DNA from: Balneolales bacterium ANBcel1
GTDB taxonomy: Bacteria; Bacteroidota; Rhodothermia; Balneolales; Natronogracilivirgulaceae
Length of the DNA: 64,000 nt
Assembly (NCBI GenBank): GCA_029688905.1
Contig: JARULB010000005.1
Span: forward strand, 1 to 64,000
Direction: 5' to 3'
Shown here: positions 41,688 to 46,952 of the stretch, in pieces
Position numbering within the stretch: the stretch's first letter is position 1
How the letters are laid out: every line of letters starts with the position of its first letter
Translations under genes and position numbers: made by a program
The notes under the pieces: model-generated
Databases searched by the model: none
Seen by the model: only the letters and a program-made list of their open reading frames with translations
What the model was told of the DNA's origin: nothing

Positions 41688-44123
41688 CTATTTCAGCAGG
41701 CGGCGGCTGATTTTCTGGATATCTCCAAGCACACCGGCGGCGGTTACTTCCTTGCCGGCTCCGGGACCCTGAATGATGAGCGGATTATCGTAATATCTCC
41801 TGGTTCGGATGGAAATCAGGTTGTTGGTATCCGAAAGGGTGCCCAACGCTGACGATTTGGGCACCGAGGCGATCCCCACTTTTACAACTCCCTCCTCAAG
41901 ATGTCCGGTATAGCGCAGCACTTCCCCACGCTCGCGGGCCTGATCCACCCGTACTTTCCAGGCCTCGTTTTGCTCCTCCAGCCGTTCGAAAAACTGATCC
42001 TGGGGGATGGATTTCAGCGCGTCCGGAATCAGGTTTTCGACTTCGATGTCCTCTCGTTCAAACCTCAGGCCGATGGTTCGGGCAAGGATCAGGAATTTGC
42101 GGGCCACATCCTCACCAGAGAGGTCGTCCCTGGGGTCGGGCTCCGAAATTCCGGTTTTCCTGGCCGTGCGCACCACTTCGTCAAACGGAATCCCTTCCTC
42201 CAGCTTGCTGAAAAGGAAGGTCATGGTTCCGGAGACAACTCCGGATATGCTGATGATTTCATCCCCGCTGCGCATCAGGTCCTTGAGAGTCTGTATGACC
42301 GGCAGTCCGGCTCCCACGGTTGTTTCGTAGAGATAGTGGGTGCGTTTGTTCACCGTGTAGCTGAGCAGCTCGTCAAAAAACTCCTGCTCGAAACTGTTGG
42401 CCCGCTTACTCGGGGTCACCACATGGATGCCGTTCCTCAGCAGCCGGGGATACATCCGGGCGACCTCAGCATTTCCGGTGGCATCCACAAAAACCGACCG
42501 GTAGGGATACTCCTTGATGAGGTGATCCACGATAAACTCCCAGTCGGTGGGCTGCCCCTCCTCCACCCGGTCAGGCACCCTGGCCGCAGGGATGCCCAGC
42601 GGGTTCCAGGCCATCTTCCGAGAATTGCAGGCGCCGATGATGCTCAGATCGACTTTGGGGTCTTCCAGCCCGTGCAGAATATCGAGTACCTTGCCGCCGA
42701 TGGCTCCCATGCCGGCGATAAACAGGCGGACCCGGTGTGTATGGATGCAGAAATGGTCATTGAGCAGGCGAACCGCCATTTCCGCTTCCCCGTTTTTCAG
42801 CAGCAGGCTCAGGTGGCGGTTGGCCAGGCCTTTCGCCATACCAAGCGGGGCGATACCATTCTCGCCCAGCACCGACAAAACCGCACCGCTGATACCCAGG
42901 TCACGCTCCAGTTTTTCACCGATTACCGTGACCATGGAAACGTTGTCCAAAATGTGTGGCGTGTCGATGAGGCCGGTGCCATACTCGGTTTCAAACTCGT
43001 CGAGAAGGGCCGAGCGCGCATCCTCGGCCTGATGGACATGCACCACCACCGTGATGCCGTAATCGGAGGATGCGGCGGCATGAAACAGGATCGAAATATC
43101 GTGGTGATCCAGCGCCTTGAGAGCCCGGTAGCTCATCTCATGGATGCGATCGAGTCCGCGGCTGCGCAGCGCAATGGCAACAATGTTCTTCTTCAGCGAT
43201 ACGGAGCGAAGGCGGCCCGGCGTTTCCCGGTAGTCCCTGGTTATGACCGTCCCGTTATTCTCCGGGTTCATCGTATTCTTGATCAGGATCGGAATGTTGC
43301 GCGCCTGAAGCGGTAGCACGGTGCGCGGGTGGAGCACCTTGGCTCCGAAATGGGACATTTCCGCGATTTCCGAGTAGTGGAGCTGTGGGATAGTGACGGC
43401 GGTCGGCACGATATCGGGATCGGCGGTAAGCACGCCGTTCACATCGGTCCAGATCTGGACCTCCTGCGCGTCAAGCGCTTCGCCGAACAGGCTGGCGGTA
43501 TAGTCGGAACCGGAGCGGCCCAGTGTGGTGATCTCCTTGTCTGTGGTTGATCCGATAAATCCGGTAATCACCGGGACCTGCCCCTCAATCGGGTGCATCG
43601 CCTCGCGGATCAGGTGCAAGGTGGTGATGGTATCCACGTCGGCATCCCCGAAGCGGTTGTTGGTACGCACCAGCTTGTGCGTATCGAACGCCTGCGACGA
43701 CTGGCCGGCAGCGATCAGTGCCGCGGAAAAAATCCGGGAAGAGAGGCGTTCGCCGTAGGAGACAATGCTGTCGCTGATTCGGCCGGTTACCGCCGGCTGC
43801 TGTTCCAGATCGATCAACTCCCCCTCCAGCTCATCCAGCAAAGCACGGATGGCCTCGTACAGACCCGATGCGCGTTCCGGATCCAGTGCCTCATAGGTTT
43901 CCAGATGGCGTTTTCGAAGTGACCCAAACCGTTCCCGCCAGGCACCCCCGGAATTGACGGCCAGCTGCATCAGGGACAAAAGCTCGTCGGTGACGCCGCC
44001 GAGAGCAGAGACCACAACTGCTATTTCCGCCGTTTTCTTCTGCTCGTTTACAATAGTTACAGCATTCCGGATGCGATGGACATCATACAGGGACGTCCCT
44101 CCGAACTTAACAATACGCAGCAT
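41688..44123 (-). CDS. thrA: bifunctional aspartokinase/homoserine dehydrogenase
   Basis: It catalyses the first and third steps from aspartate to homoserine, which feeds methionine and threonine. The 811 residues comprise an aspartokinase domain (1 to about 290, with KFGGTSLYD at the start), tandem ACT domains (about 310-455) for allosteric control, and a homoserine dehydrogenase domain (about 465-811, Rossmann loop GMGAIGGKVLD). It is the third gene of the met operon, 3 bases after metX, so it lies under the SAM riboswitch. The threonine branch gene thrB is not nearby, so the metL name would be equally fair. Confidence 0.95.
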   Translation of the reverse strand: MLRIVKFGGTSLYDVHRIRNAVTIVNEQKKTAEIAVVVSALGGVTDELLSLMQLAVNSGGAWRERFGSLRKRHLETYEALDPERASGLYEAIRALLDELEGELIDLEQQPAVTGRISDSIVSYGERLSSRIFSAALIAAGQSSQAFDTHKLVRTNNRFGDADVDTITTLHLIREAMHPIEGQVPVITGFIGSTTDKEITTLGRSGSDYTASLFGEALDAQEVQIWTDVNGVLTADPDIVPTAVTIPQLHYSEIAEMSHFGAKVLHPRTVLPLQARNIPILIKNTMNPENNGTVITRDYRETPGRLRSVSLKKNIVAIALRSRGLDRIHEMSYRALKALDHHDISILFHAAASSDYGITVVVHVHQAEDARSALLDEFETEYGTGLIDTPHILDNVSMVTVIGEKLERDLGISGAVLSVLGENGIAPLGMAKGLANRHLSLLLKNGEAEMAVRLLNDHFCIHTHRVRLFIAGMGAIGGKVLDILHGLEDPKVDLSIIGACNSRKMAWNPLGIPAARVPDRVEEGQPTDWEFIVDHLIKEYPYRSVFVDATGNAEVARMYPRLLRNGIHVVTPSKRANSFEQEFFDELLSYTVNKRTHYLYETTVGAGLPVIQTLKDLMRSGDEIISISGVVSGTMTFLFSKLEEGIPFDEVVRTARKTGISEPDPRDDLSGEDVARKFLILARTIGLRFEREDIEVENLIPDALKSIPQDQFFERLEEQNEAWKVRVDQARERGEVLRYTGHLEEGVVKVGIASVPKSSALGTLSDTNNLISIRTRRYYDNPLIIQGPGAGKEVTAAGVLGDIQKISRRLLK

Positions 44124-44126
44124 ATT

Positions 44127-45191
44127 TCAGGTCAGGGATAAATGATATTTGCGAGACAATTCCGGGAAATGAGATTTAACAAGATTTTGAATTTCTTCAA
44201 ACTCAATAAGAAAAGCGTCGTGGCCGTTTTCGGACTCCAGTTCGGCATAGCGACCGTTTGCCAGGAGTGCGGCAAGTTCTTTCTGTTCGTCTACCGGGTA
44301 CAGCACATCCGAGCTGATTCCGATAACCAGTACGGGAATTTCAACATTTCCGAGCACCTCTTCAAACGAACCGCGGCTACGGGACACATCGTGGCTGTCC
44401 ATGGCCACTGTAAGCCGATGGTAGGTAACCGCATCGAACCGCTCGACCAGTTTGTAGCCCTGGTAGTTCAGGTAGGATTCCACCTGGAAGCACGGTTTGT
44501 CCTGCTGCTGGTTTCTGCCGAATCGTTTTCCGAACGATTTGGCGCTGCGGTAGGTAATCATGCCCATCATGCGGGCGGCCGCGAGTCCGTCGGCCGGAGG
44601 ATCCTCCGGCGGATAGTGCCCGTCTCTCCATTTCGGGTCGCTGGTGAGCGCTTTGCGCTGTGCTTCGCCGACCCCGATGGCCCAGGCCGAATGATCCTTT
44701 CCCATGGCGATGAGCACAAGCTGCTCCGGCCGGCTGTCCATGATCCCGAATTCCAGGGCCTGCATTCCCCCCATGGACGCTCCGATTGCGAACCGGATTC
44801 TGCTCACACCGAGATGATCCAGAAGCCGCTGCTGCACCCGAACCATGTCGCGGATGGTTACGACGGGGAAATCCCCGCCATAACGCTTTCCGGTCTTCGG
44901 GTTTATGGTCAACGGACCGGTAGTTCCGTAGCAGCTGCCCAGCACGTTGCTGCAGATGATATAATGCTCGTCGGGGTCCAGCAGCCGGCCCTTGCCGAAA
45001 AATCCGGTCAGCCATTTATCGGCCGAAGCATGGCCGGTAAGGGCGTGGAAGACCACCACGACATTACTCATATCCGCATTCGGAGTACCCCAGGTGTTGT
45101 ATGCGATTTCGAGTTCCGGAAAAGTGAAACCGGCTTCGGTTACAAACGGTTCAGGGTCCTTGCAGATGATGGAATCGGGATGATGGGACAT
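44127..45191 (-). CDS. metX: homoserine O-acetyltransferase MetX
   Basis: An alpha/beta-hydrolase-fold enzyme that acetylates homoserine. The 354 residues include the nucleophile elbow GASMGGMQALE near residue 147, the Asp near SSDVLYP and the His in ENGHDAFL, completing the catalytic triad. The partner MetY upstream uses its product with sulfide. The ATG at 45191 is 14 bases after the metY stop. Confidence 0.95.
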   Translation of the reverse strand: MSHHPDSIICKDPEPFVTEAGFTFPELEIAYNTWGTPNADMSNVVVVFHALTGHASADKWLTGFFGKGRLLDPDEHYIICSNVLGSCYGTTGPLTINPKTGKRYGGDFPVVTIRDMVRVQQRLLDHLGVSRIRFAIGASMGGMQALEFGIMDSRPEQLVLIAMGKDHSAWAIGVGEAQRKALTSDPKWRDGHYPPEDPPADGLAAARMMGMITYRSAKSFGKRFGRNQQQDKPCFQVESYLNYQGYKLVERFDAVTYHRLTVAMDSHDVSRSRGSFEEVLGNVEIPVLVIGISSDVLYPVDEQKELAALLANGRYAELESENGHDAFLIEFEEIQNLVKSHFPELSRKYHLSLT

Positions 45192-45205: not shown

Positions 45206-46567
<1,362 letters not shown>

Positions 46568-46569
46568 TC

Positions 46570-46610
46570 AAAAAAAAAGCCTCAACCGGTGCCGATTCCG
46601 GAAGAGGCTT
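46570..46610 (-). terminator. SAM riboswitch terminator
   Basis: On the minus strand, stem AAGCCTC/GAGGCTT with an inner CCGG/CCGG part is followed by a run of nine T bases. It lies between the aptamer and metY, so it is the expression platform. The terminator is expected to form when SAM is bound. Confidence 0.9.
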
Positions 46611-46629
46611 TCATTAAAAACCATCTTCC

Positions 46630-46748
46630 CTCATCTTTCCCTCGGAACAAACGATCGTTCCGGAGCAGGATTTAGCACCTGACCCCCGTTTCCGGGGCGG
46701 TTGCTAAGGCTTCGCAGGGCCTGATCCCTCCACCTTTCTCAATAAGAG
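46630..46748 (-). ncRNA. SAM-I riboswitch (S-box leader)
   Basis: On the minus strand, the aptamer begins with CTCTTATTGAGAAAGG, has the conserved GGAGGGATCAGGCCCTGCGA and CCTTAGCAACC blocks, then GGTGCTAAATCCTGC, and closes with GATGAG pairing back to the start. This is the standard four-way junction of the S-box class, which binds S-adenosylmethionine. It is followed by a rho-independent terminator and the metY-metX-thrA genes. Confidence 0.96.
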
Positions 46749-46769
46749 ACTTTCTAACAATGTAAAAGA

Positions 46770-46812
46770 ACAGATAAAAGAAAGGCCCTTCTCGAGATGT
46801 CGGGAAGGGCCT
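46770..46812 (-). terminator. upstream terminator, between leader frame and SAM riboswitch
   Basis: On the minus strand, a 9-bp perfect stem (AGGCCCTTC with GAAGGGCCT, 12-base loop) is followed by TTTCTTTT. It lies before the riboswitch on the same strand, so it could stop transcription before the aptamer is even made. Confidence 0.85.
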
Positions 46813-46842
46813 GCAAAATCACTTAAAACGCACCAGTGCCCC

Positions 46843-46878
46843 TCACCTGCCGTGGCAGGACATACAACACATGGACAT
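46843..46878 (-). CDS. Met/Cys-rich leader peptide MSMCCMSCHGR
   Basis: An 11-codon frame between the met promoter and the upstream terminator, with ATG at 46878 and TGA at 46843. Three of its 11 residues are Met and three Cys, the two sulfur amino acids. The frame is bracketed by complementary bases: GCCCTT abuts the ATG, and AGGGGC begins with the last base of the stop codon. The same GCCCTT also matches the AAGGGC arm of the downstream terminator. This is the layout of an attenuator leader peptide. No Shine-Dalgarno sequence is visible. Translation is inferred. Confidence 0.55.
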   Translation of the reverse strand: MSMCCMSCHGR

Positions 46879-46923
46879 AAGGGCGTTTCGAGATATCATA
46901 TCATTTAAATTTAATACAAGGCA

Positions 46924-46952
46924 AGTTTACTGCATAATGATGCCTATGTCAA
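46924..46952 (-). promoter_or_regulatory. met operon promoter
   Basis: On the minus strand, a perfect TTGACA (46947-46952), a 17-base spacer and TAAACT (46924-46929). Transcription would start near 46917, about 38 bases before the leader frame. Confidence 0.85.

Follow-up and report, generated by a model that had tools for sequence, protein, structure and literature searches.

In the genome of Balneolales bacterium ANBcel1, a sulfur amino acid operon is preceded by a leader region with several elements. The window analyzed here is a 64,000-nucleotide stretch (contig JARULB010000005.1, positions 1 to 64,000; assembly GCA_029688905.1), and on its minus strand a promoter, a short open reading frame (ORF) rich in Cys and Met codons, an intrinsic terminator, a boxA-like site, and a SAM-I riboswitch with its own terminator are followed by metY, metX, and thrA. 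The elements, with the segments of the proposed attenuator numbered 1 to 4, are as follows.

46924 to 46952, minus strand: promoter, TTGACA (46952-46947), a 17-nt spacer, and TAAACT (46929-46924); predicted start of transcription near 46917
46843 to 46899, minus strand: leader peptide ORF, 18 codons plus TGA (stop codon 46845-46843), encoding MISRNALMSMCCMSCHGR, with 3 Cys and 3 Met after the start
46873 to 46889, minus strand: segment 1 (GAAACGCCCTTATGTCC), inside the ORF, which pairs with the region after the stop codon when no ribosome is there (protector)
46834 to 46848, minus strand: segment 2 (AGGTGAGGGGCACTG), over and after the leader stop codon, the antiterminator strand
46783 to 46812, minus strand: hairpin of terminator 1 (segments 3 and 4), AGGCCCTTCCCGACATCTCGAGAAGGGCCT, -19.4 kcal/mol, followed by TTCTTTT (hairpin with T tract, 46812-46776)
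46761 to 46772, minus strand: boxA-like site TGTTCTTTTACA, close behind terminator 1
46628 to 46748, minus strand: SAM-I (S-box) riboswitch aptamer (Rfam RF00162, 73.3 bits against a gathering score of 44.4, E 3e-15)
46571 to 46611, minus strand: expression platform of SAM-I with terminator 2, AAAGCCTCTTCCGG...CCGGTTGAGGC plus T tract (about 46611-46577 with its T tract)
45206 to 46519, minus strand: metY, O-acetylhomoserine (and O-acetylserine) sulfhydrylase (TIGR01326, 693 bits against a cut-off of 495)
44127 to 45191, minus strand: metX, homoserine O-acetyltransferase (NF001209, 377 bits against a cut-off of 331)
41688 to 44123, minus strand: thrA, bifunctional aspartate kinase/homoserine dehydrogenase I (NF006959, 781 bits against a cut-off of 726)

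An earlier note, made from the sequence alone, had given the coordinates of the region correctly but had described the leader frame as having 11 codons. The same frame is open back to an ATG at 46899, giving 18 codons. The nearest genome, from the same genus, has the same 18-codon frame (MISLYGSMSMCCMSCSCR), and most of the family has 18 codons. The motif GCCCTT, which the note had placed directly before the start codon, is therefore codons 6-7 (Ala-Leu) and lies inside the ORF, as is usual for segment 1 of an attenuator; Cys and Met together account for 6 of the 17 codons after the start. The leader region plus terminator folds at z = -2.4. No Rfam family other than SAM-I reached its gathering score in the window, and no T-box match was found in the leader up to E = 10. 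With a lax threshold, no second known RNA family was found in the leader either, a match to PyrG_leader at 22 bits against 65 being attributable to chance on the terminator. The locus carries only one detected aptamer, and the first element appears to be an ORF-based attenuator rather than a T box or one half of a tandem riboswitch.

To examine the conservation of this arrangement, SAM-I was searched in 129 genomes of the order Balneolales, of which 115 have it, and 131 SAM-I loci from 109 genomes were inspected. In 95 of these 109 genomes, a short upstream ORF contains at least 5 Cys plus Met in 12 codons, compared with 19 of 2620 dinucleotide shuffles (0.7%). All 17 genomes of the window's own family with SAM-I have the leader. 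With a threshold of at least 4 Cys plus Met in 12 codons, the leader is present at 99 of 109 metY SAM-I loci. Conversely, at 21 loci in the same order SAM-I precedes a homocysteine S-methyltransferase gene (PF02574), and none of these has the leader. All 99 leader loci precede metY, 90 directly and 9 with metY about 1 kb downstream; in the one inspected, the gene in between encodes a CoA-binding-domain protein (PF13380), inside the presumed sulfur operon. The leader is therefore tied to the metY operon and not to SAM-I in general. Ten metY SAM-I loci score below the leader threshold, and some are clearly without a leader, namely those of three reduced genomes and of one species within a leader-bearing genus, which represent natural losses.

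The leader frame is under selection at the protein level. In the last 17 codons, Cys makes up 22.9% and Met 17.5%, against 0.88% and 2.2% in the long ORFs of the window, and 90 of 99 leaders have at least two Cys and two Met, whereas the rest of the peptide is variable. Within genera, single-base codon changes are 216 synonymous and 295 nonsynonymous, a corrected nonsynonymous/synonymous ratio of 0.35; the same bases read in the other two frames give 0.92 and 1.23. Cys codons vary between TGT (259) and TGC (127), but TGG occurs only twice (TGY:TGG = 386:2).

The hairpins are conserved along with the frame. A terminator lies between the leader stop codon and SAM-I in 95 of 99 loci, and a terminator follows SAM-I in 98 of 99. 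The exceptions to the former are four loci of one genus, in which the leader ORF extends to about 22 nt before SAM-I and holds long inverted repeats instead; a different mechanism is likely there. The strongest partner of the 5′ arm of terminator 1 in the preceding 75+ nt is centered on the leader stop codon (median +0.3 nt) and falls in the footprint of a terminating ribosome in 99% of loci, against 29% expected for a uniform position. In the window, segments 2 and 3 pair at -17.0 kcal/mol (RNAduplex). The sequence of segment 2 changes from genus to genus (AGGGGC, GCAGAGGG, GGGTTC, GGAGAGCC, CGGAGG) together with the terminator arm. With one representative for each of 29 genera, own pairs of segments 2 and 3 average -15.2 kcal/mol and permuted pairs -11.6 kcal/mol (sd 0.4), with 0 of 20000 permutations as good. 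The pairing of segments 1 and 2 behaves likewise, at -17.9 against -15.4 kcal/mol and 0 of 20000 permutations, although these comparative tests do not correct fully for shared ancestry. The switching geometry proposed in the earlier note (GCCCTT, AGGGGC, and the terminator arm) is what the comparative analysis finds across the 29 genera.

The effect of a ribosome on these alternative pairings was assessed with partition functions, in which the RNA ended just before segment 4 and the ribosome footprint was kept unpaired. On average, segment 3 has 8.6 bases paired with segment 2 when the ribosome stands on a Cys/Met codon, 5.8 without a ribosome, and 1.5 when it stands on the stop codon, and the stalled value exceeds the stop-codon value in 94 of 95 loci. 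The footprint is an assumption, and the stop-codon result follows from the non-random position of segment 2 described above. Moreover, given the intermediate pairing without any ribosome, the basal state is not cleanly "off" in many loci.

Transcription is predicted to start upstream of or at the frame. In the window's family, TTGAC-N17/18-TA(A/G)A(C/T)T lies upstream of the ORF in 13 of 17 genomes, with variable spacer sequence. In the other families, a promoter-like pair has its -10 box 4-9 nt, mostly 7 nt, before the leader start codon in 71 of 82 loci (null 3.4%); the leader is thus probably translated from a leaderless RNA in most Balneolales. Both observations argue against a start of transcription behind the frame. 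Between the two switches, a GTTCTTT-type motif stands within 45 nt 5′ of the aptamer in 96 of 99 leader loci, typically 15-23 nt away (shuffle null 2.4%), but is rare at the SAM-I loci that precede methyltransferase genes. In the window, this boxA-like TGTTCTTT (46772-46761, minus strand) matches the boxA-like site of the genome's own rRNA leader, which carries TGTTCTTTGA 140 nt before 16S. It would be transcribed only after read-through of terminator 1 and could shield the untranslated riboswitch from Rho.

Taken together, these findings are best explained by two transcription switches in series controlling metY-metX-thrA (probability roughly 0.84), which supports the interpretation in the earlier note of a Met/Cys-rich leader peptide attenuator in front of SAM-I. 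The first switch would be a classical, trp-type ribosome-mediated attenuator, in which a ribosome follows RNA polymerase on the leader ORF. If Cys-tRNA or Met-tRNA is short, the ribosome would stall on those codons, leaving segment 2 free to pair with segment 3, so that terminator 1 cannot form and transcription goes on. If charged tRNA is plentiful, the ribosome would reach the stop codon and cover segment 2, and segment 3 would pair with segment 4 to form terminator 1. Transcripts that pass would then meet the SAM-I riboswitch, where SAM would cause termination at terminator 2. Under this NOR-like control, the operon would be fully on only when charged Cys- or Met-tRNA and SAM are both low. 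MetY belongs to the "aminocarboxypropyltransferase/cysteine synthase" subfamily, which fits the occurrence of Cys and Met codons together. That the attenuator and SAM-I stand in series is well supported by sequence evolution; that the first switch responds to Cys- and Met-tRNA charging is the best explanation but remains, in the absence of expression, ribosome-profiling, or mutational data, an inference from sequence, as do ribosome stalling and the in vivo activity of both terminators.

Other explanations appear unlikely. The leader could encode a functional Cys/Met-rich micropeptide, for example a metal- or thiol-binding peptide, that happens to share the transcript, with the hairpin being only its 3′ terminator. 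The protein-level selection and the richness in metal-binding residues would fit this idea. However, only the Cys/Met content is kept, whereas order and flanks differ strongly between genera (MKKVMSMSMSMMSCLGG, MKNKPLYMMCCCMHPNPGS, MKQIATLISCCMCCMRESHTA). In addition, the antiterminator strand is locked to the stop codon and covaries with the terminator, which a plain 3′ terminator does not need, and the leader is always upstream of metY SAM-I and never of the other SAM-I operon. Selection of the UG-rich stretch (UGUAUGUGU...) as RNA, for a protein or small RNA to bind, with the Cys/Met frame as a by-product, is also unlikely. Alternating Met-Cys codons do make UG-rich RNA, and many leaders contain AUGUGUAUGUG, but third positions vary as TGT/TGC and almost never to TGG (2 of 388), the substitution ratio is low only in frame, and some leaders are Met-rich without Cys runs (MKKVMSMSMSMMSCLGG, MIQHNRNIALMIMHMIMRMHIS).

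It is also improbable that only SAM-I regulates the operon, with the upstream hairpin serving as the 3′ terminator of era or of an unlinked small RNA and the operon being transcribed from a promoter downstream of it. In favor of this view, era lies upstream on the same strand, and the T tract of terminator 1 is close to the aptamer. In most loci, however, the boxA-like site and the aptamer follow the T tract almost directly, leaving little room for a promoter, and recognizable promoters lie upstream of or at the leader ORF. The selected Cys/Met coding frame would be unexplained.

In 34 SAM-I loci of Rhodothermia outside Balneolales, no convincing leader was found: two pass the density cut, both without a terminator, and one of these lies in what looks like another gene's region. 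None was found in 26 loci sampled from elsewhere in the phylum. In one further family, whose MetY is mostly closest to an Ignavibacteriales record, about 7 of 30 loci have leader, terminator, and SAM-I in the same order, for example MKIQIKNTSGKLNMAMCMCCMCNIGPR and the Met-only MIQHNRNIALMIMHMIMRMHIS; a named Ignavibacteriales record has it too. In Pontibacter and Rufibacter the order is reversed: SAM-I comes first, and a long leader ending in Cys/Met (e.g., RMCMCCCCC), such as MEKGTTSTPLFLRSTPAAQSLVLSHASTFATTCCSRMCMCCCCC, starts 9 nt behind the aptamer in 8 of 9 loci, mostly with no terminator. Other Bacteroidia have Cys-, Met-, or Thr+Met-rich leaders before metY without a SAM-I found by a simple motif scan; most of these Bacteroidia loci lack an intrinsic terminator, so they are not assigned to the same architecture. 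In Thermophagus, Marinilabilia, and Anaerophaga, a leader with Thr and Met runs (...TSFTTTTGMMMGRMFMA) lies about 130-140 nt before metY and is followed by a conserved inverted repeat (GTTGACGCATCATATCTG / CAGATACCGGTGCGTCAAC), with no Rfam hit in one of the three loci (L264); it may read threonine and methionine together. A tentative extension is that Cys/Met leader peptides are a general, undescribed sulfur sensor of metY operons in Bacteroidota, repeatedly combined with SAM-I in both orders. In Balneolales and probably Ignavibacteria, the leader attenuator precedes SAM-I and both would act on transcription, with a boxA site between the two switches keeping Rho away from the untranslated riboswitch, whereas in Hymenobacteraceae (Pontibacter, Rufibacter) SAM could control translation of the leader itself, a hierarchical instead of serial logic.

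The individual parts of this system have known counterparts. Like trp-type attenuators, it has a short ORF with regulatory codons, four mutually exclusive segments, an intrinsic terminator, and a stop codon next to segment 2; it differs in mixing two sulfur amino acids in one leader, in its placement in series with a riboswitch, in the probably leaderless mRNA in most of the order, and in its occurrence in Bacteroidota. The uORFC-8-2 cysteine attenuator before cysS of Rhodobacterales also places Cys codons in a short upstream ORF followed by an intrinsic terminator, but it has two conserved Cys codons only, controls cysS, lacks a riboswitch, and belongs to another phylum (PMC8632094). Cysteine leader peptides before cys operons of Actinobacteria have Cys codons near the stop of a short ORF, with no conserved terminator found there, no Met codons, and no SAM-I (PMC1262725). 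The metL leader of Streptomyces lividans metNIQ, MSTTSDRTPATEATTTPGARCMCRRMCAF, is leaderless, mixes Met and Cys codons, and precedes a methionine-related operon; this is a transport operon, however, with no clear terminator and no SAM-I in the same leader (PMC8079986). SAM-I has been described in series with a second sensor in tandem SAM-I/T box(Met) leaders (9 examples), in which the T box also reads tRNA charging, and in SAM-I/AdoCbl NOR gates (PMC9481103). Here, the tRNA sensor would be a translating ribosome on a leader ORF that reads Cys and Met, and the arrangement is order-wide rather than limited to a few examples. In Xanthomonas, a SAM-I that also senses uncharged initiator tRNA integrates SAM and Met-tRNA status at a met operon, but there one RNA binds tRNA directly and acts on translation, without a leader peptide (PMC7270179). 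No report of a leader-peptide attenuator in series with SAM-I was found in the open-access literature searched, which did not include preprints; as far as this literature shows, the combination, its Cys+Met reading, and its order-wide conservation are new.

The arrangement would add a natural two-input transcription logic in which a translating ribosome and a metabolite aptamer would check, one after the other, the charging of two amino-acid tRNAs and the end product SAM. The first sensor mixes codons for two amino acids, matching an enzyme subfamily described as making homocysteine and cysteine. On this reading, ribosome-mediated attenuation would be extended to sulfur metabolism in Bacteroidota, with more than 90 natural variants with and without each part, and it becomes testable why SAM-I alone suffices at the methyltransferase operon but not at metY.
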